Source: an uncultured Flavobacteriales bacterium | GTDB lineage: Bacteria > Bacteroidota > Bacteroidia > Flavobacteriales_G > Salibacteraceae | Direction: 5' to 3' | NCBI GenBank assembly: GCA_913062955.1 | Contig: CAJXZP010000022.1 | Span: 1 to 54,325 of the forward strand | Length of the DNA stretch: 54,325 nt | Shown: one piece after another, positions 14,895 through 28,178 of the stretch | Position numbering within the stretch: position 1 is the stretch's first letter | How the letters are laid out: each line of letters begins with the position of its first letter | Position numbers and translations under genes: made by a program | Notes under the pieces: generated by a model | The model's database searches: none | Seen by the model: only the letters and a program-made list of their open reading frames with translations | What the model was told of the DNA's origin: nothing

Positions 14895-17800
14895 TTGACT
14901 ACACTAAATAAATACTATATTCTTATCGGTTTTCTTGTTATTTCGTTTTTCGGAAAGCAGGCAAAGGCTCAATTGGTTGCCGATTTTGTGATATACGCGG
15001 ACTCTGGTTGTGTTCCTTTTGTAGCCCAGTTTTTAGATAGTTCAAGTGCACAAATTACTTATCGTCATTGGGACTTTGGTAATGGAAATACAGCCATAGG
15101 AAATAATACAACCCCAAGTGCCTCCTATAATACTTCTGGTATTTTCAATGTTACTCTCACCGTTTCGGATGGGGTAGATACTGTTTCAATCACAAAAATT
15201 GGTGCTGTTTCTGTATTTGATATTCCAAACGTTAGTTTTGCTCATCAAAATGTTACTACGGGCTGTGTTAATTTTCCGTTTTCGGTGAATAATACTTCCC
15301 CTACCGGTTTAATCCCTATCGCAAGTTGGGAATGGGATTTTGATGATGGATCTCCTTTGGAATCTGGCCAAAACATAACCCATTTGTATAGAAGCCCTGG
15401 GGTTTTTAACGTTACATTAATTATTACAGATGCATTGGGATGTTCCAGTTCTTTTCTAGAAACTAATCTAGTAAATGCAAAACCTAAACCGGTGGCTAAT
15501 TTTGATTCCAATGACAGTCTTTCTGTTTGCGGTCCCCCATTGACCGTTAATATTTTTAGCACCACCACAAGTTCTCATCCCGTAATATATAATTGGACCA
15601 TTGGAGGTAATAGTTATAACACCTTAAATGTAAATCCAACTTTCCTTACCTCTGGAGGTTTTGATGCGGAACTAGTGGTAGTAAATACCATTGGTTGTTC
15701 TGATACCTTATTTATTCCAAACTATATTTGGATTGGTTCCATCATTGCATCTATGAATATTCCGGATACCGCATGCCTCAATGAGTTGAAAATGTTTGAA
15801 AATACGTCCTTCGGTGGACATGATTTTTACTGGGATTTTGGGGATGGGGATACCGCAATGGGTGCGAATGTCTTTCACGCCTACTCCACTCCAGGCATTC
15901 ATACAGTAACGTTAGTAAGTAGCGGAGGATCTACCTGTGATGATACGGTTACCCAAGATATTTTTATTGAAACTGCTCATGCAAATTTTACCTCTAATCC
16001 TCATTTGGCATGTGAAACACCTTTTCAAGTTAGTTTCACTGACCTTTCAATCGGAAACGACTTGTCTTGGGAATGGCGCTTTGGAAACGTTTTTGGGGTT
16101 CCTCCTTTCGTTCTACCAAATATGTCTAATTTACAACATCCCGGCAATACCTATTGGGAGGAAGGTACATTTGACGATACTTTAATTGTAACCACTCGTA
16201 ATGGTTGTAGAGATACAATGATTGTGGTACAAAATGAAGAGATTATTATAACAGAATCTTATTGGGATGCTTCCCCAAAACAGGGTTGTTTTCCTCTAGA
16301 TGTGGATTTCACAAACTTGGCGGATTCCATGTCACGAGTGGCTACTTGGTGGTGGGAATTTAATGATGGTTCACCTTTAGAGTATTCTTTAAATCCTTCG
16401 CATACATTTCTAAATGTAGGTATTTACCCCGTAATATTAACTATTGTTTCCATTGATGGCTGTACAGCAACCTATCAATCAGATATAGCGGTAGGAAGTC
16501 AACAAAATGCTGATTTTTCCATTATTACAACCGTGTCATGTGCCTCTGATACGGTTTATTTTACCAATTTATCGAGTGATACCAATCTATTAAATAGTTA
16601 CAATTGGAGTTTCGGAGATGGAAGTTATATGGCCGTACCAGACGCTTATTATTCTTATATGGACACGGGGTATATGGATGTGATATTAGTAGCTTCTTAT
16701 AATGGATGTCCAGATACGCTAATCGTTGATTCCGCTATATATATTAATGGTCCCATTATAGATGTTACTTCAAGTTTCAATTGCGATAGTCAAAATGTGG
16801 TTCAGTTTAATGGAAGCTCACTAGGAGGGACTAACTGGTCTTGGGATTTTGGTGATTCTTCCGATTTTGATACCCTAAACTGGAGCCTTTTACACACCTT
16901 TCCTTTAGGTGATGGCAATTATATTGTAGAACTTACCGTTTGGGATAGCGTTACTGGATGTTCTGATCATCTCCAACATTTGGCTCCAATTCGATTTATT
17001 CATGGTATGATAACCCCTTCAGATACCACTGTTTGTAAAGGGGCTAAAGTGGTATTTAATACGGGGAACTCCAGTAATGCAATCTCCTTGGTTCAATGGA
17101 GTATTGATGGGTTAAGTAATCAAAAATTAGATAATAGTAATACGCATTATTATATGAATGATCTTGGGGCGCATACTGTTTATGCAGTGATTCGTGATAT
17201 TCATGGTTGTTTTGATACGATTAGCCATAATTATGTTGTGTATCAACCCGTGGCTGATTATTCCATTTTGAATTCATTCGGTTGTGCCCCATTTGGTGTA
17301 CAGTTTTCTGATCTATCTTCAAGTGATACGACTATCGTGGATTGGGATTGGGATTTTGGTAATGGTCAGACTTCATTTCTTCAAAATCCCACTTTTATCT
17401 TTAATGGAAATGGGACCACAGAATACGATATTAGTTTAACCGTGACAGACACCTTCGGATGTGCTAATACAATTTTAAATTTTCAAGACGTATTAGTAAT
17501 TGAACCGCCTTCATTTTTTGAAATTCCAGACGCAGAGGTATGTGAAAATAGTCCTGTTTTATTTACAAATGTGACGAATGGAAATTACGTATATTCCTGG
17601 AGTTTTGGGGATGGGACTACAAGTAATATTAAAAATCCTGTTCATGAATATGGGTATCCCGGTTGGTACGATGTATCCTTAACTGTTATAGACTCCATGG
17701 GTTGTGATTCTACTTTTGTGCAATTGAATGGAATAGAAGTGGAAGATACTCCCGTTGCAAATTTTATCGCAAATCCATCTTTTTCAGACTGTTTTCCAGC

Positions 17801-19268
17801 AAGTATTGTTTTTACTGATCTAAGTGTTTACCCTAATGTGGATTACTGGTCTTGGAATTTTGGGGATTCTCCAAATTTTGTGGTTCAATATTCGCCAGGA
17901 GCTCAAAATTTTTACAATGCTCCAGGTGATTATGATGTGACCTTGGTGGTCACCACTTCTTTTGGCTGTATGGATACACTAGTGATGTTCAACTTTATTA
18001 ATATAGGTGGGCCAACCGGTGTTATTGTTCATGAACCAGAAATTGGTTGTTTAAATCAAGATATGGTTTTTTCTGTGGATAGTATCAATGCAGATGCCCA
18101 AAAATTTGTATGGGACTTTGGTGATGGCGTAGTGGATACATCTTACGCATCTAATATTGCCATTGAACATAATTATAGTTTACCTGGATATTATTATGTT
18201 TCTGTAATCATTTCTGATTTGATGGGGCATTGTCAAATCACGGATACAATGACCATTGAAGTTCATGAAATACGTGCCGATTTCTTAATCACAGATACCG
18301 CTGGTTGTTCTCCATTATTTTTTCATGTAAATAATAATTCCATCGGTGAAGATCAAATTAATTGGCTATTAGATGGAATTGCACAAAGTCAGAACATACT
18401 TGATTCCTTTTTAATAAGTGAAGAAGGACCTCATATTGTTTCGCTGGCGGTATTTAGTAGTTACTCTCAATGTAGAGATACCCTAGATGTTGAAGTAACG
18501 GTGTTTCCAAACCCTGTGCTTACCGTATCCAATGATTTAACCATTTGTATTGGAGATAGTGTGAAACTGAATGCCGCAGGGGCTCAATCTTTTTCTTGGT
18601 GGCCAAATACTTTTTTATCGAATACTAATATTTCGGACCCATTTAGCTTTCCAGATAGTAATATAACCTACATTGTGGAAGGTCGTAATATATATGACTG
18701 TTGGGCTTTTGATACCATAAACCTCATTGTTCAACAACATATTAATTTGGATTCAATTAGTTCAGATACTACTATTTTCCTAGGGTCGGAATTAACCCTT
18801 AGAACCTTTACTTCAGACGGGCTTTGGTATAGTTGGTCTCCTCCTTTTGCCATGGGATGTACAGATTGTCCGGCCCCTCTAATTAAACCGTCTGAGTCCA
18901 CTTCATATCAACTGAGTTATGGTGATACAAATGGTTGTTTTCAGTATGATACAAGCGTTGTTGTAGAAGTACTGGATGAGTTTAAGGTAAGCATACCTAA
19001 TACTTTTACGCCTGGTTCGGATAACTTAAATGATACGTTCATTCCAGTGGTTTATGGGATGGAGAAAATGGAATATTTGAGAATTTATGACCGTTGGGGA
19101 GGTTTGGTTTTTGAAACCTACGACATAACCAAAGGTTGGGATGGAACCTTTAGAAATAAGCTTGTGGCTAACAATTCTGCTTTTTCATATACCACACGAT
19201 TTCGAAGGTACAACGGAGATTTAAAAGATTTTGTGGGTGTGGTGATTGTATTAATTAATGGAAAATAA
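14895..19268 (+). CDS. Large PKD-repeat surface protein with type IX gliding-motility C-terminal domain
   Basis: Translation appears to start at a TTG at 14895, because there is no in-frame ATG, GTG or nearer TTG before a signal peptide ending QAKA-Q. The body consists of about a dozen PKD-like Ig folds recognised by repeated WDFGDG/WSFGDG/WEFNDG cores followed by VTLTVSD-type strands, most with a Gly-Cys near the end. The last 95 residues (IPNTFTPGSDNLNDTF, YDRWGGLVFET, GWDGT) are the CHU_C/TIGR04131 domain that directs type B export by the type IX secretion system. The protein should be secreted or displayed at the surface and may serve in adhesion or gliding; no enzyme domain is seen. It is 1457 residues. 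Its stop codon directly abuts the stop of ribH on the other strand. Confidence 0.88.
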   Translation: MTTLNKYYILIGFLVISFFGKQAKAQLVADFVIYADSGCVPFVAQFLDSSSAQITYRHWDFGNGNTAIGNNTTPSASYNTSGIFNVTLTVSDGVDTVSITKIGAVSVFDIPNVSFAHQNVTTGCVNFPFSVNNTSPTGLIPIASWEWDFDDGSPLESGQNITHLYRSPGVFNVTLIITDALGCSSSFLETNLVNAKPKPVANFDSNDSLSVCGPPLTVNIFSTTTSSHPVIYNWTIGGNSYNTLNVNPTFLTSGGFDAELVVVNTIGCSDTLFIPNYIWIGSIIASMNIPDTACLNELKMFENTSFGGHDFYWDFGDGDTAMGANVFHAYSTPGIHTVTLVSSGGSTCDDTVTQDIFIETAHANFTSNPHLACETPFQVSFTDLSIGNDLSWEWRFGNVFGVPPFVLPNMSNLQHPGNTYWEEGTFDDTLIVTTRNGCRDTMIVVQNEEIIITESYWDASPKQGCFPLDVDFTNLADSMSRVATWWWEFNDGSPLEYSLNPSHTFLNVGIYPVILTIVSIDGCTATYQSDIAVGSQQNADFSIITTVSCASDTVYFTNLSSDTNLLNSYNWSFGDGSYMAVPDAYYSYMDTGYMDVILVASYNGCPDTLIVDSAIYINGPIIDVTSSFNCDSQNVVQFNGSSLGGTNWSWDFGDSSDFDTLNWSLLHTFPLGDGNYIVELTVWDSVTGCSDHLQHLAPIRFIHGMITPSDTTVCKGAKVVFNTGNSSNAISLVQWSIDGLSNQKLDNSNTHYYMNDLGAHTVYAVIRDIHGCFDTISHNYVVYQPVADYSILNSFGCAPFGVQFSDLSSSDTTIVDWDWDFGNGQTSFLQNPTFIFNGNGTTEYDISLTVTDTFGCANTILNFQDVLVIEPPSFFEIPDAEVCENSPVLFTNVTNGNYVYSWSFGDGTTSNIKNPVHEYGYPGWYDVSLTVIDSMGCDSTFVQLNGIEVEDTPVANFIANPSFSDCFPASIVFTDLSVYPNVDYWSWNFGDSPNFVVQYSPGAQNFYNAPGDYDVTLVVTTSFGCMDTLVMFNFINIGGPTGVIVHEPEIGCLNQDMVFSVDSINADAQKFVWDFGDGVVDTSYASNIAIEHNYSLPGYYYVSVIISDLMGHCQITDTMTIEVHEIRADFLITDTAGCSPLFFHVNNNSIGEDQINWLLDGIAQSQNILDSFLISEEGPHIVSLAVFSSYSQCRDTLDVEVTVFPNPVLTVSNDLTICIGDSVKLNAAGAQSFSWWPNTFLSNTNISDPFSFPDSNITYIVEGRNIYDCWAFDTINLIVQQHINLDSISSDTTIFLGSELTLRTFTSDGLWYSWSPPFAMGCTDCPAPLIKPSESTSYQLSYGDTNGCFQYDTSVVVEVLDEFKVSIPNTFTPGSDNLNDTFIPVVYGMEKMEYLRIYDRWGGLVFETYDITKGWDGTFRNKLVANNSAFSYTTRFRRYNGDLKDFVGVVIVLINGK

Positions 19269-20329: not shown

Positions 20330-20818
20330 TTAGGAAAGCATTTCCTGTCGGAGTAAAAATTCCAATTGTTCATTAGATAGTTTAAGTTGATCCATCATAA
20401 ATTTATTTTCTTTTCTTAATTGATGGGTTTCAAAAGCATTAGAAATAATGTTTTTTAAATAGGTCTCATCCCAAGGTTTCTGAACATAGTGGTAAATTCG
20501 GCCTTTATTAATGGCATCAATTACAGCTTGTATATCGCTAAACCCTGTAATAAGAATACGAATGGTTTCTGGGTAATCTGGTACGATGGATTCTAAAAAT
20601 TCAACCCCTGTCATAAATGGCATTCGTTGATCAGTTAGGACAATTGAAATATTTTGTTGTTCTAATATTTTACGGCCCTCAGCTCCAGATTCGGCAGTGA
20701 ATATTTTAAAATCTCTACGAAATGCGGCTTTAAAACTTTTTAAATTATTGACTTCATCATCAACATATAGTAAAGTCAGTTTATCCTGACCTTTGATTAT
20801 TTTAGTGTCTTCAGACAT
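20330..20818 (-). CDS. Single-domain response regulator with C-terminal helix
   Basis: From the ATG at 20818 (162 residues) the protein has a complete receiver domain: the acidic pocket in YVDDE (Asp20-Asp21), the phospho-acceptor Asp63 in LTDQRMP, a Thr in LITGFSD and the Lys of VQKPW. After the receiver comes only a helical, Glu/Leu-rich tail, with no DNA-binding, GGDEF or HD-GYP domain. An in-frame ATG at 20881 would add 21 basic residues and is less likely. The receiver closely resembles that of the hybrid at 25041 (DQRMP, ITGFSDIQAVIDAINKG versus LTGYSDIKAVMDAINKG). The gene faces away from the ThiF operon across a 179-base gap, so it probably belongs to the same signalling circuit. Confidence 0.88.
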   Translation of the reverse strand: MSEDTKIIKGQDKLTLLYVDDEVNNLKSFKAAFRRDFKIFTAESGAEGRKILEQQNISIVLTDQRMPFMTGVEFLESIVPDYPETIRILITGFSDIQAVIDAINKGRIYHYVQKPWDETYLKNIISNAFETHQLRKENKFMMDQLKLSNEQLEFLLRQEMLS

Positions 20819-20846
20819 ATTTCCACGCTTTGGGGGTTTTGTTGCT

Positions 20847-20854
20847 CGAAAGTA
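20847..20854 (-). promoter_or_regulatory. Candidate -7 box of the lone receiver gene
   Basis: On the minus strand the octamer is TACTTTCG, identical to the box ahead of icmF and one mismatch from TAnnTTTG. It lies 28 bases before the ATG at 20818. Confidence 0.35.
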
Positions 20855-20961
20855 CTTTAAAATCATTATATGTTTTGACATAATAATGGAAAATAAAATT
20901 TTGGTGATAACAATTGATATTTAGCTGTAAGTGGAGGGAGGGGGTAAAGTACCGATTTAGT

Positions 20962-20969
20962 TACTTTTG
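20962..20969 (+). promoter_or_regulatory. Candidate -7 box of the ThiF-GNAT-kinase operon
   Basis: TACTTTTG is an exact match to TAnnTTTG, 28 bases before the ATG at 20998. A G-rich stretch, GTGGAGGGAGGGGG, lies just upstream where the -33 element would be; no TTTG is seen there. Confidence 0.5.
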
Positions 20970-20997
20970 ATTGAAGTTAATTCTAATACGAATAATT

Positions 20998-22098
20998 ATG
21001 GAAGATTTTTTTAAATCTACTGAAAACGAGGTGGGTATTTTTCGCCCGTTGTTTTTTCGATTGATAGATGAGACTACCATACTATCACTAAAAGCGTTGT
21101 TGACTGATAATCCCCATATTTCAGTTATAAATGAAATAGAAGGTCAAGTACGAGAGTTAGTAAAATCTCGGTTTCCGGCTGGTTTGGAGTCTCATCATAT
21201 GGATAATAGGGTTGCGGATGTTTTCGGCAATCAGTCTAAAGATACCTATGGCGTATGGGTTTACTACCCATGGACTAATAAGTTGGTTCATATTTTGGAC
21301 GAATCAGAATTTGTTGAATTAAGAACCAATAGAAACCAGAATAAAATCACCAAGGAAGAACAACTGCTTCTTTCTAAAAAAAAGATAGGTATTATTGGAT
21401 TGAGTGTTGGGCAATCCATTGCTTTAACCTTAACTATGGAAAGAGGTTGTGGTGAATTGAGGATAGCTGATTTTGATATTCTAGAATTATCAAATTTTAA
21501 TAGAATTAGAACTCCATTATTCAATCTGGGAGTGCCAAAAGTCATCGCTACCGCTCGAGAGATATCCGAAATTGATCCATTTGTCCATGTGAAAATATTT
21601 GAAGAAGGGATTACATCTGCAAACATGAGTGATTTTATGTTAGGCGATGGTAAACTAGATATCCTTGTAGATGAGTGTGACAGTTTAGATATTAAAATTA
21701 AAGTCCGTGAGTTTGCTAAAGAACACCAAATACCGGTCATAATGGATACCTCAGATAGAGGTATGTTAGATGTGGAAAGGTTTGATTTAGAACCGAAACG
21801 CCCCATTTTTCATGGTCGTGTAGAGGGAATTAACTCGGAGAAGTTAAAAGGGTTGAGTAATGCGGAAAAGATTCCTTTTGTTTTGAAAATTTTAGGATTT
21901 GATGATTTATCAACAAGAGCAAAGTCTTCTTTAGCTGAAGTTAATAAAACGATAAGTACATGGCCACAATTGGCAACTTCTGTTATTTTGGGCGGTGCTG
22001 TGGGAGCAGATGTTAGTAGACGTATATTACTCAATGAATTTCATGATTCGGGTAGGTATTATGTGGATATTGAGGGGATTATTAAGAATAAAATATAG
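20998..22098 (+). CDS. ThiF/E1-like adenylating enzyme (Rv1355c-like N-terminal part)
   Basis: The ATG at 20998 gives 366 residues; an in-frame TTG at 20971 is less likely. An N-terminal region of unknown fold (with YGVWVYYPWTNKLVHIL) leads into a Rossmann ThiF domain with IGIIGLSVGQSIALTL for the nucleotide, IADFDILELSNFNRIR (the E1 D-x-x-E-x-SN-x-N-R pattern) and VDECDS. E1-like proteins adenylate a carboxyl group on a protein or small molecule. The sequence recalls the ThiF half of mycobacterial Rv1355c-type proteins, which carry a second nitroreductase-like half that is missing here. No zinc CxxC pairs are seen and no ubiquitin-like or sulphur-carrier partner is encoded nearby. It is the first gene of a five-gene operon. 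Substrate unknown. Confidence 0.75.
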   Translation: MEDFFKSTENEVGIFRPLFFRLIDETTILSLKALLTDNPHISVINEIEGQVRELVKSRFPAGLESHHMDNRVADVFGNQSKDTYGVWVYYPWTNKLVHILDESEFVELRTNRNQNKITKEEQLLLSKKKIGIIGLSVGQSIALTLTMERGCGELRIADFDILELSNFNRIRTPLFNLGVPKVIATAREISEIDPFVHVKIFEEGITSANMSDFMLGDGKLDILVDECDSLDIKIKVREFAKEHQIPVIMDTSDRGMLDVERFDLEPKRPIFHGRVEGINSEKLKGLSNAEKIPFVLKILGFDDLSTRAKSSLAEVNKTISTWPQLATSVILGGAVGADVSRRILLNEFHDSGRYYVDIEGIIKNKI

Positions 22099-22172
22099 TA
22101 CACTAATTTCAATTATCTTTAAGTTAACTAACAAGTTAATACCGGCATAAAAGAAATTGTTATGAATTACAT

Positions 22173-22880
22173 ATGTTAAGAGTTAGAGCATTTAGAGCAC
22201 CAGATGATATGGAGGCGGGTGAAAGATTCGCATTGGGGCATAAGAAAGTGTTGGAAGACATAGGTGTTAAAGTTACATCTGGCCGAAATGATTGGATTGC
22301 AGATCCATTTGTTTATGTGATGGTTGTGGAAGATACTGCAAATGAAAATAAAGTGGTTGGTGGTGCCCGACTTCATGTAGCGAATCGTGAAAAAGAACTA
22401 CCTATGGTAGAGGCTATAGGTCAAGTGGATGATGGTATTTATCCTCAAGTGGACGTTATGGTGGATGATGGCGTTGCTGAAGTGTGTGGCTTATGGAACT
22501 CAAATGAAATTGCAGGGCTTGGCATCGGAAGTAATATTTTGGTTAGAATTTGCATTGCTATAGCTAAACAAGCTAATTTAACCAAGTTAGTGGCCTTGGT
22601 TGCAAGACATACATTACGGAAGGCCATTCAAAAAGGGTTTGAAGTGATTACAACAGTTGGAGATGAGGGTAAATTTAATTATCCTAAACTGGATCTGGTA
22701 GCCACGGCTATAGTTTTGAATGATGTCGAGGATTTATCTAAGGCCATAGAGTATGAAAGAATTGAAATTTTGGAATTAAGAAGAAGAAACTTTTTTGTAT
22801 GTACTGTAAAATGGCCCAAAGGCGAATTTGAGCTAGAATATCAGTTATTGCTTTCTTCCATTCAAAAAATTGGAATTTAA
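22173..22880 (+). CDS. GNAT-fold acyltransferase resembling LuxI-type autoinducer synthases
   Basis: This 235-residue protein looks like a GNAT acyltransferase. It has VVGGARLHV in the position of the LuxI GxxRL strand, AEVCGLW (compare the WEiSR strand of LuxI), the acyl-CoA-type loop AGLGIGSNIL, and LTKLVALVARHTLRKAIQKGF as the last helix and strand. The C-terminal 60 residues are extra and not recognised. No family name is certain; the LuxI resemblance is in the order of motifs, not in close identity. The ATG at 22173 follows the ThiF gene by 74 bases, and its stop is eight bases before the kinase gene, so the acyltransferase and kinase are almost surely made together. A role in making or attaching an acyl group that the kinase senses is an inference. 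Confidence 0.6.
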   Translation: MLRVRAFRAPDDMEAGERFALGHKKVLEDIGVKVTSGRNDWIADPFVYVMVVEDTANENKVVGGARLHVANREKELPMVEAIGQVDDGIYPQVDVMVDDGVAEVCGLWNSNEIAGLGIGSNILVRICIAIAKQANLTKLVALVARHTLRKAIQKGFEVITTVGDEGKFNYPKLDLVATAIVLNDVEDLSKAIEYERIEILELRRRNFFVCTVKWPKGEFELEYQLLLSSIQKIGI

Positions 22881-22888
22881 AAAGGAAA

Positions 22889-25048
22889 ATGAAACTAGTA
22901 AAAATAATCGTATTATTTCTAATTCTACCTTTTTCGGGTTGGACGAGCTCTGTGGTTAAATTAGTTAACAGCAGTGAGGTAATTCGGGTCAAAAACTTTG
23001 AGTTTTTAATTGATTCGAGTATGCAGTTCACTATTAATAATATTGAACTCAATGAATTTAGTCCGTTAAATGAAACTAATTATACAGATCTTCAAAATAC
23101 GCACTCTACATGGGTAAGAATTAAATATACTACTTCGGAAGAGTTTTCTAACGTGGTATTGCTTATTGATCAAGCCAACCTAGATACAATTGAACTTTAT
23201 CAAAGAGGGCAACTGGGAATTTGGGAAAAAACGATGTATGGAAACAACTTCCCATTCTCCACTCGAAAGTACGAAACCACCCACTTTATTTTTGATTTAC
23301 AAACCGCTACCGAGGAAAGGGAAATATACCTGAGAATAAAAAACAATGTCCAAACTTCCTATAATATTATTATAGGTGAAAATACGACCGTTTTTAATTA
23401 CGAGCAAAATGGAAATATTCTATTCGCCATAATACTAGGTGTATTTGCGGTGATGATTATGTATAATTTGTTTTTATATATGGTCATTAAAGAAACCGTG
23501 TATTTAATCTATGTCATACAGTCGTTTTTTACCGGGTTATTGCAAACAGTACTGTTTGGATTTTCTTATCAATTCTTTTGGCCTAACAAGATTCAGTTTC
23601 AAGAATATGGATTAGAGTTTCTTACCATTGTTGGAACTATTTTCGGATTAGTTTTTATGAATGTATTCCTAAAAACGAAGTATCATGTTCCGAAATTATT
23701 TAGGTTATCAAAAGTATTTATTGGGTTTTATTTGGTCTTGGGTTTGGTGGTTTGGTATAATATCACTTTTGTAAATGCTGTTTTATTAGTTTTTCAACCC
23801 ATAATAGCTCTATTTATTCTTTTTGTTGCCATAAAAGTTATGGTGGGAGGATATAGGCCTGCAAGATTTTATTTGTTGTCTTGGTCCGTATTTTTAATCG
23901 GTATTTTAATTTTTGTTTTGTCTGAAGTAGGAATTATTGAACGAAATAACTTTACCACATTAACCATGACATTTGGTGCTGGCTTAGAAACTGTGCTATT
24001 ATCGTTTGCCCTAGCTAATAGAATTAATATATTAAAATCAGAACAGGAAGAAGCGGTTTCTAAATCTTTTCGTTTAGAAAAGGAAAAGGCAACATTAATC
24101 CAGGAGCAATACCTTGTTTTGGAACAAAAGGTGGTGGAACGAACCGAACAATTAAATACGATCAATTCAAAATTGGGAGAAAAAAATCAAGAAATAGAAT
24201 TGGCGTATTCTGATCTTAAGGATGCGCAATCGCAATTGGTTACGGCAGAAAAAATGTCCTCCTTGGGACAGTTGACTGCCGGGATTGCTCATGAAATTAA
24301 TAACCCAATTAACTTTGTAAGTTCAAATGTGTCTCCATTAAGAAGGGATGTAGATGATTTAATTGAACTATTTGAAAAAACGGAGGCTATCGCGAAGCTA
24401 AATTTAGAACCGAGTAAATTTGAAGAAATAGAGGCATTTAAGGAAGAAATAGAATTCCCATACATTGTGGATGAAATCAACGACCTTTTGGATGGGATGA
24501 AAGATGGTGCTAACCGTACCGTTGAAATAATTAAGGGATTAAAGCTATTTTCTAGAGTGGATGAGGACGACCTGAAAAAAGTGAATTTAGAAGAAGGAAT
24601 AAATGCTACATTGGTACTTTTGAGTAGCCATTTAAAACACCATATTGAGGTGGAAACTAACTTCTCTGGTATTCCTAACGTAGATTGCTACGGAGGGAAA
24701 ATGAACCAGGTTTTTATGAATATTCTAAGTAATGCCATTCATGCGGTTAGTGAAAGAACTGCAGGCGAAGGCAAAATTGTAATTTCGACCACCCAGGATA
24801 CTTCGAATGTATTTATATCCATTAAGGATAATGGAAAAGGAATGACATCAGAAGTGAAAAATAAACTTTTTGAACCATTCTTTACCACCAAACCAGTAGG
24901 AGAGGGAACAGGCTTAGGATTATCTATCGTTTTTACAATAATTGAAAAAATTAACGGGGAAATTGATGTGAATTCTGAACTTGAAATCGGTACTGAATTC
25001 TTAATCAAACTACCCATAACAAACACTAACACCACCTACCATGATTGA
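22889..25048 (+). CDS. 7TMR-DISM membrane histidine kinase
   Basis: A signal peptide (MKLVKIIVLFLILPFSGW) leads to a periplasmic 7TMR-DISMED2-type beta domain to about residue 170. Seven hydrophobic helices follow to about 375, then a coiled coil (about 385-445, QEQYLVLEQKVVERTEQL). The kinase core has His468 in AGIAHEINNPINF, a class related to NtrB-type kinases, and an ATPase domain with NILSNAIHAV, DNGKGM and GTGLGLSIV. 719 residues. Extracellular DISMED2 domains are thought to bind carbohydrates or other small ligands. It has no receiver of its own, and the next gene overlaps it by eight bases and begins with a receiver, so phosphotransfer to that protein is likely. The DQRMP-type receivers encoded nearby are natural partners. 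Confidence 0.9.
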   Translation: MKLVKIIVLFLILPFSGWTSSVVKLVNSSEVIRVKNFEFLIDSSMQFTINNIELNEFSPLNETNYTDLQNTHSTWVRIKYTTSEEFSNVVLLIDQANLDTIELYQRGQLGIWEKTMYGNNFPFSTRKYETTHFIFDLQTATEEREIYLRIKNNVQTSYNIIIGENTTVFNYEQNGNILFAIILGVFAVMIMYNLFLYMVIKETVYLIYVIQSFFTGLLQTVLFGFSYQFFWPNKIQFQEYGLEFLTIVGTIFGLVFMNVFLKTKYHVPKLFRLSKVFIGFYLVLGLVVWYNITFVNAVLLVFQPIIALFILFVAIKVMVGGYRPARFYLLSWSVFLIGILIFVLSEVGIIERNNFTTLTMTFGAGLETVLLSFALANRINILKSEQEEAVSKSFRLEKEKATLIQEQYLVLEQKVVERTEQLNTINSKLGEKNQEIELAYSDLKDAQSQLVTAEKMSSLGQLTAGIAHEINNPINFVSSNVSPLRRDVDDLIELFEKTEAIAKLNLEPSKFEEIEAFKEEIEFPYIVDEINDLLDGMKDGANRTVEIIKGLKLFSRVDEDDLKKVNLEEGINATLVLLSSHLKHHIEVETNFSGIPNVDCYGGKMNQVFMNILSNAIHAVSERTAGEGKIVISTTQDTSNVFISIKDNGKGMTSEVKNKLFEPFFTTKPVGEGTGLGLSIVFTIIEKINGEIDVNSELEIGTEFLIKLPITNTNTTYHD

Positions 25049-26147
25049 TTTTAAACAAGAGCAGATAGGGGCTGTTTTGTACGTTGATGACGAACAGAAT
25101 AACCTGAACTCTTTTAGATCAACCTTTAGAAGGGATTATCGAATTTATACGGCAAATAATGCTGTGGAAGCCTTAAAGAGTTTAAAAAGTCATTCAGACA
25201 TTAAGGTGATTATTTCGGATCAAAGAATGCCGGATGTTACCGGTGTAGAGTTTTTTGAAAAAATTAGATATATTTATCCAAATAAAGTGCGGATAATCCT
25301 TACAGGTTACTCTGATATTAAGGCGGTCATGGATGCGATAAACAAAGGTCAAGTGTATCGTTTTATTGATAAACCATGGAATAATAACTTGGTGAAACTT
25401 GCCATTCAAGATGGCATAGATTTATTTAATACTCGTCATTCCTTAGCCGATAAAAATGAGTCGTTACAAACAGCTTACAATGAGTTGGATAAATTTGTGT
25501 ACAGTGTTTCCCATGATTTAAGATCACCCCTAATGTCCATTCTCGGAATAGCTAATTTAGCGGAACTGGATTTGGAGGATAAGAAAGCTTTGGAGTACTT
25601 TTCATCCATTAAAGGAATGGTTGGTAAACTGGATGGTTATATTCATCAAATTATTGATCACTATAAAGGATCTCACAGTATGGATAATTCTGATTCCATT
25701 GATTTTAATGGGTTGATTTCAGAAATTATTGATAGTATTAAATATCATCCAAGTGCTCAAGGGGTTGATTTTAGGGTGGAGATTAATCAATTGGACGAAT
25801 TTCGATCCAATAGAATGAATATTAAAACGGTATTAAGTAATTTGATATCTAACGCTTTTAAATACCAAAGAGAAGAGGAATCAGGTAAGTTTGTAAAAGT
25901 TATAGGAGATGTTACTTCCTCCCAAGCTAAGATTACGGTTAGTGACAATGGGGTGGGAATAAAAGAAGATAAGAAAGAAGAAGTTTTTAATATGTTTTAT
26001 CGTGCCAAACAAGATAATACAGGAACAGGACTCGGTCTTTTTATAGTGAGTGAAGCTATTGAGAAACTAGGAGGAACGATAAATCTAGAATCAGAATATG
26101 GTAAAGGAACAGAAATAACTCTAAAATTACCAGGCAAAAGTGAGTGA
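25041..26147 (+). CDS. Receiver-histidine kinase hybrid (REC-HisKA-HATPase)
   Basis: The order is reversed from a usual hybrid kinase: the receiver comes first (YVDDE, phospho-acceptor Asp60 in ISDQRMP, LTGYSD, DKPW) and is followed by a short helix and a soluble kinase with His158 in YSVSHDLRSPLMS and an ATPase domain (LISNAFKYQ, DNGVGI, GTGLGLFIV). There is no membrane segment or DNA-binding domain, so it should act as a cytoplasmic relay: phosphorylated by the 7TMR kinase, then controlling its own kinase. 368 residues. Its start lies inside the 3' end of the upstream kinase gene and its end overlaps the next gene by eight bases, showing translational coupling. Confidence 0.9.
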   Translation: MIDFKQEQIGAVLYVDDEQNNLNSFRSTFRRDYRIYTANNAVEALKSLKSHSDIKVIISDQRMPDVTGVEFFEKIRYIYPNKVRIILTGYSDIKAVMDAINKGQVYRFIDKPWNNNLVKLAIQDGIDLFNTRHSLADKNESLQTAYNELDKFVYSVSHDLRSPLMSILGIANLAELDLEDKKALEYFSSIKGMVGKLDGYIHQIIDHYKGSHSMDNSDSIDFNGLISEIIDSIKYHPSAQGVDFRVEINQLDEFRSNRMNIKTVLSNLISNAFKYQREEESGKFVKVIGDVTSSQAKITVSDNGVGIKEDKKEEVFNMFYRAKQDNTGTGLGLFIVSEAIEKLGGTINLESEYGKGTEITLKLPGKSE

Positions 26148-26544
26148 AAAACTGTCCATAGTAATTGTTGACGATAATGAGATTGATTTAATGATTGGAG
26201 AGCGTTTGCTCTCCAGAGTTGATGACTCTATCGTGGTTTACACATTTTCATGTGCAGATGATGTCTTGTTATGGTTAGAAAATTCTAAAATTGAGGAATT
26301 AGCAGAGGTTACTTTGTTTCTTATTGATATTTATATGCCGGTATTTAATGGGTTTTACGTAGCCGATAAAGTGATTGAAAAATTTGAAAAATTACCCAAA
26401 CAGGCAGCGTGTTACCTATTAAGTGCGACCATTGACATATCCGATACCCGAAAAATTAATAGGAACAGTAAGGTGCAAGGGTACATAGGTAAACCCATAA
26501 CCGTTCACCTATTTAAAGATCTGATTTTGAAGCACCGTTTATAG
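26140..26544 (+). CDS. Single-domain response regulator
   Basis: This 134-residue protein is only a receiver domain: VIVDDNEID, phospho-acceptor Asp63 in LIDIYMP, LLSATID and the Lys in YIGKPI. Start is a GTG at 26140, overlapping the stop of the upstream hybrid by eight bases. It has no output domain, so it may be a phosphate sink, a phosphorelay step, or a partner for another protein. It is the last gene of the operon that starts with the ThiF enzyme. The convergent ppk2 gene begins 12 bases beyond its stop and no terminator is seen. Confidence 0.9.
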   Translation: MSEKLSIVIVDDNEIDLMIGERLLSRVDDSIVVYTFSCADDVLLWLENSKIEELAEVTLFLIDIYMPVFNGFYVADKVIEKFEKLPKQAACYLLSATIDISDTRKINRNSKVQGYIGKPITVHLFKDLILKHRL

Positions 26545-26556
26545 GTTTTTAGAACA

Positions 26557-27324
26557 CTAGGCTTCCATTACTCTTTCAATAATATAATTAATGGCGTCAA
26601 ACCGTGCGACCACTTTTTTATTGGCATTAATTATTTTCCAAGGAGCGTATTCTGTATTCGTATTGTCAAACATTTTTTGTTTGTATTGGGTATAACTATC
26701 CCATAATTCTTGTGCTTTACTGTCTACTAAACTGTATTTCCATTTTTTTAACGGATTATTTTGAAGGTTTGTAAAACGCCTCAATTGTTCATCTTTTGAA
26801 ATAGAAAAATATAGTTTTATCAAAACCGTATCATCATCCATGATCATTTTTTCAAAATCGTTGACTTCAGACATAAATTTTTCATATTCCTTTTCCGTAC
26901 AGAAACCATTAACAGGTTCAACCACTGCTCGGTTATACCAGCTTCTATCAAAAAATAATGTTTCACCATGTTTAGGCAAATGGGTGACATATCGCTGAAA
27001 ATACCATTGGTCGCGTTCTTCCTTAGTCGGTTTAGGTAATGCAACCGTTTTAAGAGACCTGGGGTTAAGAAATTGTGTGATTCTTCGAATGGCCCCACCC
27101 TTACCCGCAGAGTCTCGTCCCTCAAATATAATAATGACTCGTTTGTTATTTTCCGTTACCCAGTGTTGTAATTTCAGGAGTTTAATTTGCCATTTTAGTA
27201 AATCCCTTTCATATTTAACCCTTCGAATTGCTTTTTCCAGATCTATACTTTCCTGTGAAAGTAGCATCTTTAAACCTTCCTTTGATGAAAGTATGTCTAT
27301 GTCTTTTTGTTTTAACTCCATCAT
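26557..27324 (-). CDS. ppk2: Polyphosphate kinase 2 family protein, second of a tandem pair
   Basis: The 255-residue protein has the PPK2 Walker A motif EGRDSAGKGG (about 68-77), then the Walker B-like FFDRSWYNRAVVEP with Asp126 and Arg127, and a lid rich in Lys and Arg. PPK2 enzymes phosphorylate nucleotides from inorganic polyphosphate. The single-domain size fits class I (diphosphates to triphosphates), but class cannot be settled by eye. It follows the second ppk2 gene on the same strand with two bases between stop and start, so both are in one operon. The two proteins are clearly related throughout and arose by duplication. Confidence 0.9.
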   Translation of the reverse strand: MMELKQKDIDILSSKEGLKMLLSQESIDLEKAIRRVKYERDLLKWQIKLLKLQHWVTENNKRVIIIFEGRDSAGKGGAIRRITQFLNPRSLKTVALPKPTKEERDQWYFQRYVTHLPKHGETLFFDRSWYNRAVVEPVNGFCTEKEYEKFMSEVNDFEKMIMDDDTVLIKLYFSISKDEQLRRFTNLQNNPLKKWKYSLVDSKAQELWDSYTQYKQKMFDNTNTEYAPWKIINANKKVVARFDAINYIIERVMEA

Positions 27325-27326
27325 AA

Positions 27327-28178
27327 TTATACGTCTAAATGATTTAGGCGTTGGTAACGCATAACAATATTAGGGTCCGGATTTAAGTAGGTCTTGGCTT
27401 CTTCTTTTCCATCATAATCAAATTGGGAAAGTATAAATCGCATAGACTCTAATCGAGCTTCCTTTTTATTATTGGCTTGAATAATAGTCCAAGGCGATAC
27501 CATGGTATGGGTATGCGTAAACATTTCTTCTTTGTATTGTTTGTATTTTTCCCATAATTCTTGTCCCTTTTCATCAACAGGAGAAATTTTCCAAAGCTTT
27601 AATGGATCGGTTTTTCTACTTGTAAACCTGGTCATCTGAACTTCTTTATCAATGGAAAACCAGAATTTAATTATTTCCACACCATCTTCCATCAACATAT
27701 GTTCAAATTCTGGAACCTGTTTTAAAAATGTTTTGTACTGCTTTTCACTACAGAAACCCATTACGGGTTCTACCACTGCTCGATTATACCAACTTCTATC
27801 AAAAAAAACCATTTCCCCCGGCTGAGGTAGTTCTTTTACATATCTTCTAAAGTACCACTGACCTGTTTCTATTTCGGTAGGTTTATTTAAAGCAACCACA
27901 CGCATGGATCGTGGATTTAAATGTTCCACAAATCGTCTTATCGTTCCCCCTTTTCCAGCTGCATCTTGCCCTTCAAAGATGATCATAACTTTTTTTCGCT
28001 TTTTCCCAATCCAGTTCTGGAGCTTTACAAGTTCCATTTGTAAAAATCGAAGGTCTTGTTCGTACGCTAATTTAGCTTCAATTTTTTGCGTTGAAATGTG
28101 CTTTTGAGATAATAACTCTAGTAAATCTGCTTTCGTTTTCAGATTAAGGAATTCCTCCTGAGTAATCTTCTTCTCCAT
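27327..28178 (-). CDS. ppk2: Polyphosphate kinase 2 family protein, first of a tandem pair
   Basis: At 283 residues this is slightly longer than its neighbour, mainly through an extra C-terminal segment. The Walker A is EGQDAAGKGG (about 69-78) and the second motif is the same FFDRSWYNRAVVEP. It therefore uses polyphosphate to phosphorylate a nucleotide. As the first gene of the pair it carries the promoter region, in the 112-base gap shared with the divergent Reeler-domain gene. Two copies suggest different nucleotide or direction preference, but nothing in the motifs separates them. Confidence 0.9.
   Translation of the reverse strand: MEKKITQEEFLNLKTKADLLELLSQKHISTQKIEAKLAYEQDLRFLQMELVKLQNWIGKKRKKVMIIFEGQDAAGKGGTIRRFVEHLNPRSMRVVALNKPTEIETGQWYFRRYVKELPQPGEMVFFDRSWYNRAVVEPVMGFCSEKQYKTFLKQVPEFEHMLMEDGVEIIKFWFSIDKEVQMTRFTSRKTDPLKLWKISPVDEKGQELWEKYKQYKEEMFTHTHTMVSPWTIIQANNKKEARLESMRFILSQFDYDGKEEAKTYLNPDPNIVMRYQRLNHLDV

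Follow-up and report, generated by a model that had tools for sequence, protein, structure and literature searches.

The locus described here raises the question of whether a short run of bacterial genes encodes both the enzymes that make a small-molecule signal and the receptor that reads it. It lies in a window (the whole 54,325-nucleotide stretch of DNA analysed) from an uncultured member of the Flavobacteriales. A preliminary description, made from the sequence alone, had recognized in it an adenylating enzyme, an acyltransferase of the GNAT superfamily, a membrane kinase of the DISM type and receiver proteins, and had proposed that the two enzymes make or modify an acylated signal sensed by the kinase. 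Our analysis supports that interpretation overall: the locus is likely a synthase-receptor cassette for a signal derived from an N-acyl amino acid, with both the chemistry and the sensing inferred. The sections that follow show the gene content and domain families, the conservation of linkage, the swapping of enzymes and the co-variation of sensor and enzymes.

Organization of the locus

The five genes in tight succession and the divergent receiver gene (RRdiv) were found exactly as the preliminary description had reported them, spacing included (Table 1). A gap of 74 bases separates the ThiF and GNAT genes and one of 8 bases the GNAT and DISM kinase genes; the DISM kinase and receiver-kinase genes, and the receiver-kinase and receiver genes, overlap by 8 bases each. 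The starts preferred in Table 1 for the ThiF and RRdiv genes, judged from the lengths of relatives and from the sequence, are likely to be correct.

Table 1. Positions of the cassette genes in the window
Feature	Position	Strand	Remarks
Divergent single-domain receiver (RRdiv)	20330..20818	-	ORF listed to 20881; likely start 20818; no output domain
ThiF-type adenylating enzyme	20998..22098	+	Listed start TTG 20971; likely start ATG 20998
GNAT, FeeM/LuxI-type fold; proposed N-acyl amino acid synthase	22173..22880	+	
Membrane histidine kinase, DISMED2 (RetS-like), 7TM DISM, HisKA (H468) and HATPase; proposed receptor	22889..25048	+	
Receiver-histidine kinase (receiver, HisKA, HATPase); proposed partner of the DISM kinase	25041..26147	+	
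Single-domain receiver	26140..26544	+	Response_reg (Pfam)

Pfam profiles identified the ThiF (9.7e-20), 7TMR-DISM_7TM (1.1e-40), DISMED2 (7.5e-18) and HATPase_c (5.9e-23) domains, with Response_reg present in all three receiver proteins. The DISM kinase thus carries the combination that defines a 7TMR-DISM receptor (DISMED2, 7TMR-DISM_7TM and HisKA/HATPase), and its phospho-acceptor histidine, H468, lies within the motif AHEINNP. The best match to a model of its periplasmic domain was RetS (3jyb; E 1.5e-5), with further similarity to sugar-binding domains of glycosidases. Phospho-acceptor motifs are intact in the receivers and kinases of the window, RRdiv retaining its acidic pair, phospho-acceptor Asp and Lys. 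A scan for sigma-70 promoters gave no excess above shuffled sequences, and no exporter gene is linked to the cassette.

The window cassette has no linked DNA-binding output gene, whereas a NarL-type DNA-binding regulator lies 3' of the cassette in genome G045 (L046:15902-16609), the sole linked output gene identified by domain search; outputs may therefore vary by lineage. Directly 3' of the operon in the window, and convergent with it, are two adjoining PPK2 polyphosphate kinase genes (26557-28178, minus strand), an arrangement seen beside the cassette in only the two same-genus genomes among those compared. Positions 14895-19268 encode a protein of 1457 residues that carries a type IX secretion signal (CHU_C) and eight or more PKD domains.

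An adenylating enzyme related to oxazolone synthases

The preliminary description of the first enzyme as "E1-like" held and can be narrowed to the ThiF half of the Rv1355c/TrzS family. The window protein scored 484.9 bits against the NCBIfam model NF005901 (Rv1355c/TrzS; cut-off 476), covering positions 5-340 of the 722 in the profile, and stops after the ThiF half; the half corresponding to the flavin-dependent oxidase (FDO, nitroreductase) is missing. Because of this absence we do not file the protein as TrzS, and infer only that it works like the ThiF half of TrzS. No FDO acting in trans was found in the window's genome by a query that did find the domain in fusion-bearing genomes, used as positive controls. 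Identity to homologues from Rhodococcus and Mycolicibacterium is about 50% across about three quarters of the window protein. In an alignment of 25 ThiF sequences the SVG loop, D167, D169, N175, N177, R178, K190 and D237 are invariant; D237 (in ECDS) aligns with D200 of a Rhodococcus homologue, the M. smegmatis TrzS (D217, the catalytic Asp of the adenylation motif) not being directly in the alignment.

TrzS (Rv1355c) carries out the ATP-dependent cyclization of N-acyl-tryptophan, supplied by its N-acyltransferase partner TrzA, and then desaturates the ring to give tryptazolone; under oxygen limitation, or with an impaired oxidase, the cyclized, saturated compound accumulates (PMC12856293). 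The same chemistry is performed on tyrosine by TyzABC and on tyrosine and phenylalanine by OxzAB (PMC10404671). Since TrzS with an impaired oxidase still accumulates a cyclized product, ring closure needs no oxidase, and an FDO-less ThiF can in principle stop at the saturated ring. By analogy to TrzS, we propose that the window enzyme activates and cyclizes an N-acyl amino acid.

A search of plasmids for ThiF homologues returned Actinomycetota only, and the three loci examined adjoin GGDEF, GNAT or beta-ketoacyl synthase genes. On a plasmid of Streptomyces sp. NBC_01471 (L072:6917-8715) an FDO-less Rv1355c-type ThiF gene, beside a MerR regulator, overlaps an unrelated GNAT gene whose product shows no similarity to the window GNAT; this pair could be an independent two-gene version. 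In another locus, L073, the overlap is between the ThiF gene and a gene for beta-ketoacyl-ACP synthase 3.

An acyltransferase with a FeeM-like fold

The claim of a "LuxI-like" GNAT also held, narrowed to a FeeM-like one; it falls below the Pfam cut-off and is clear from structure. The AlphaFold2 model (pLDDT 92.3) matched FeeM (2g0b) best among PDB entries (Foldseek E 2.7e-8; VIA Z 17.4, rmsd 2.5 over 170 residues). FeeM ranked first in both structure comparisons, with the CoA-dependent acyl-homoserine lactone (AHL) synthase BjaI not far below, so that the protein qualifies as a GNAT of the FeeM/LuxI-type fold. Structure comparison of TyzA likewise gave FeeM and BjaI as closest (PMC10404671). 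Identity to these folds is only about 10-16%, no sequence model for FeeM, TyzA or acyl amino acid synthases in Pfam or NCBIfam matched the protein, and its match to a presumed TrzA is weak (hhalign E 7e-4, probability 27%). We propose that the GNAT is an N-acyl amino acid synthase, N-acylation being inferred from its fold and homologues.

Conservation of the cassette in Bacteroidota

The ThiF family was present in 11 of 395 sampled genomes of the phylum; each of these also had the GNAT, which occurred in 13 genomes altogether (11/11 ThiF-bearing against 2/384 other genomes; Fisher 1e-19, kinship ignored). The GNAT was more frequent in two families, occurring in 60/195 genomes of f23 and 129/250 of f22, and occurred in 1/149 genomes of the other class that was sampled. 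A search of genome contigs with a single GNAT sequence as query found one locus. We examined 142 GNAT loci from several families of Bacteroidota; two of these loci were cut off by a contig end before the kinase, leaving 140 assessable; the sampled genomes are related and all within one phylum.

According to the preliminary description, its reading would be refuted if the genes were rarely neighbours in relatives. This is not the case: ThiF and GNAT co-occur, and in 139 of the 140 assessable loci a DISM kinase lies downstream in the same run, as the gene-neighbour criterion for a quorum-sensing synthase and receptor demands. The kinase is within three genes of the GNAT in 137, and slightly farther in two (L044 and L178). 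The one assessable locus without it (L190, genome G672) encodes the GNAT and a ThiF-FDO fusion, followed by a gene for a 621-residue protein matching no cassette gene. As there are only 1-4 DISM proteins per genome (14 genomes tested), we estimate that chance adjacency of GNAT and DISM kinase would be below about 1% per genome. The median gap inside the cassette is 7 bases. In 122/142 loci RRdiv adjoins the operon on the opposite strand, and the terminal receiver closes the operon in many relatives, not all. ThiF precedes GNAT in 90 loci and follows it in 22, and the genes flanking the cassette vary between families. The locus is more than a chance assembly, since the cassette recurs in these differing surroundings.

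With a single exception (genome G021, L045:7671-8780), all TrzS-like ThiF genes of the window's family whose contigs extend far enough lie in the same kind of cassette. In that genome an internal deletion has left a single open frame that runs from the first part of ThiF (about 190 residues) into the kinase end of the receiver-kinase, and RRdiv is retained; we regard this locus as a decaying or repurposed cassette. In genome G022 (L044:8644-11155) the ThiF gene is flanked by two GNAT genes, one of them short (145 residues, no Pfam hit).

An exchangeable enzyme beside the acyltransferase

The slot beside the GNAT is occupied by ThiF-FDO in 73 loci and by ThiF alone in 44, and elsewhere by an ICMT-type membrane carboxyl methyltransferase (7 loci), a soluble SAM methyltransferase (4) or a flavoprotein resembling vanillyl-alcohol oxidase and 4-cresol dehydrogenase (2); it is empty in 8 loci, four contig-end cases being excluded. 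The receptor type remains unchanged where the slot enzymes differ. Several f23 loci have a flanking gene of the same size (105 residues, thioredoxin-like by sequence) next to different slot enzymes, suggesting that the enzymes were swapped in situ. Both the ThiF and the ICMT family target a carboxylate, and the phenol oxidase family to which 4-cresol dehydrogenase-like proteins belong acts on 4-hydroxyphenyl compounds. Inferred from these family chemistries, the slot enzymes together fit an N-acyl amino acid substrate, probably tyrosine-like in some lineages.

Co-variation of the sensor with the enzymes

Distances between the kinase cores of the DISM kinases track those between the receiver-kinases (r 0.82). 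When this core was held constant in partial Mantel comparisons, the sensor still co-varied with both GNAT (0.334) and ThiF (0.317; p 0.0005 each), whereas the receiver-kinase did not (0.023 with GNAT, -0.017 with ThiF), nor did sensor and receiver-kinase co-vary (-0.065). The sensor-enzyme relationship persists for DISMED2 and the 7TM part taken separately, and within f22 and f23; within f23 the receiver-kinase is weakly positive with GNAT too (0.19). Along the DISM kinase, correlation with the receiver-kinase is 0.1-0.4 over the sensor and coil and climbs to about 0.75 once the core is reached. This pattern indicates that the operon combines an enzyme-plus-sensor module with a phosphotransfer module. 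Relatedness among sequences makes partial Mantel p-values liberal, and exchange of ThiF-GNAT-sensor DNA as a block could partly explain the co-variation, an event that would itself suggest joint function. Mapped on trees, tailoring type clusters about equally on that of every cassette gene (19-26 changes against about 50 when shuffled), so that the sensor is not singled out by this measure.

Proposed mechanism

The substrate, the product, its sensing, the direction of phosphotransfer and the functions regulated are all inferred. In the reading we prefer, the GNAT would draw on acyl-CoA or acyl-ACP to acylate the amino group of an amino acid that is probably aromatic. ATP-dependent adenylation of the carboxylate of this N-acyl amino acid by the ThiF enzyme would follow, and ring closure by the amide oxygen would give an acyl-oxazolone, which would stay saturated or open to a derivative. 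A saturated oxazolone is the probable product of the window cassette, a prediction made because no FDO is fused to the enzyme and none was found elsewhere in the genome; such oxazolones may be labile, and an FDO-less enzyme might make another product. Once released, the neutral, amphiphilic compound would be recognized by the periplasmic DISMED2 domain of the DISM kinase, by its 7TM part or by both, and His468 would pass phosphate on to the receiver-kinase as well as to the stand-alone receivers. In relatives, the step that caps the carboxylate or oxidizes the product would be exchanged for other enzymes, with acyltransferase and receptor kept.

Two of the claims we inherited bear on this scheme. 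That the enzymes make an acylated small molecule is supported, at the level of inference, by the characterized homologues, by replacement of the slot enzyme with a carboxyl methyltransferase and by sensor-enzyme co-variation; that the kinase senses their product has only the indirect support of that co-variation, in the absence of sensing data.

Alternative explanations

It remains possible that the N-acyl amino acid or oxazolone lipid made by the enzymes serves another end (membrane, stress protection or antimicrobial) and that the kinase system regulates its production by sensing something different, for instance the state of the envelope or a carbohydrate. In favour of this are the characterized oxazolones, which have no known receptor and are linked to stress (PMC12856293), the resemblance of the DISMED2 model to RetS and to sugar-binding domains, and the existence of a kinase-less locus (L190). 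Against it, the sensor half of a mere regulator need not track the divergence of the enzymes, yet it does so beyond the kinase core, and the receptor type stays the same despite the enzyme swaps. Also possible, as a variant of our main reading, is that the acyl-adenylate formed by the FDO-less ThiF goes to a different product (an amide, thioester or ester, for example) that is still a signal. The FDO is missing in the window's family and was not found elsewhere in the window's genome, oxazolone rings are opened by acid and alcohols (PMC12856293), and in other loci the carboxylate is probably methyl-esterified or remains free; the cyclized, unoxidized compound accumulated by oxidase-impaired TrzS argues the other way.

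We consider it very unlikely that the ThiF enzyme modifies a protein or peptide, as in ubiquitin-like conjugation or an anti-phage E1-E2 system. It does contain an E1 superfamily domain, with weak PADLOC matches to E1-E2 systems (ThiF domain only, best 3.6e-10), but Rv1355c/TrzS is its best family by far, no E2-like partner recurs beside the cassette, and methyltransferases of small-molecule or lipid type take its place in some loci. An anti-phage E1-E2 or Cap2-type assignment was rejected, PADLOC matching the E1 domain alone amid neighbours that are a GNAT, a kinase and receivers. Equally improbable is that the gene order merely reflects inherited synteny, with enzymes and kinase functionally unconnected. 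The sampled genomes are indeed related and from a single phylum, but flanks, inner order and slot enzymes vary and presence is patchy (11-13 of 395 genomes); the linkage nonetheless persists.

Relation to known systems

The TrzAS pair (Rv1356c-Rv1355c) of mycobacteria and Rhodococcus likewise places an N-acyltransferase gene next to that of a homologous ThiF enzyme; the window cassette differs in lacking the fused flavin oxidase, in its linked DISM kinase and receivers, and in a GNAT only weakly similar. The mycobacterial TrzAS locus adjoins cyclic di-GMP genes, a context the window cassette does not share. The occurrence of the homologous synthase beside such genes both in M. tuberculosis and on a Rhodococcus plasmid is a separate hint at signalling. 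OxzAB of Pseudoalteromonas rubra and TyzABC of M. tuberculosis have the logic of acyltransferase plus ThiF cyclase in common with the cassette, but possess an oxidase and have no receptor kinase described. FeeM and the BjaI-type AHL synthases are the closest solved folds to the window GNAT, which is set apart from them by its low identity and the absence of a FeeM sequence-model match.

On the receptor side, quorum sensing of the LuxM-LuxN type in Vibrio relies on a membrane histidine kinase to detect an acylated signal produced by the enzyme encoded next to it. Its synthase family and sensor domain are unrelated to those of the cassette, in which, moreover, the tailoring enzymes can be swapped. 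Kinases of the RetS/LadS 7TMR-DISM type have in common with the cassette kinase the DISMED2 periplasmic domain, 7TM part and kinase; RetS systems are not known to have a linked synthase.

The view that the system was undescribed held only in part: the enzyme pair itself was already described, as an oxazolone-synthase type. The enzyme types and the receptor type are known; their fixed pairing and the swappable chemistry did not turn up in the literature searched. We found no report of ThiF/GNAT-DISM kinase linkage in that open-access collection, which omits most subscription papers, nor anything there on ThiF with DISM, on tyrazolone with a histidine kinase, or on DISM and quorum sensing in Bacteroidetes.

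Implications

A bolder reading, which we judge as likely to be wrong as right, is that Bacteroidota hold widespread, undescribed communication cassettes, in which a FeeM-like acyltransferase and an exchangeable enzyme that caps the carboxylate or oxidizes make lineage-specific N-acyl (probably aromatic) amino acid signals, oxazolones among them, that are read by a co-evolving DISM kinase. What bacterial oxazolones do is described as a major unresolved question (PMC12856293), and a receptor kinase tied to the synthase in well over a hundred genomes of Bacteroidota makes it directly testable. If the bolder reading is true, it would provide the first receptor and physiological role for oxazolones and define a small-molecule signalling family for the Bacteroidota, in which the swappable chemistry is a natural series for studying the evolution of receptor specificity.
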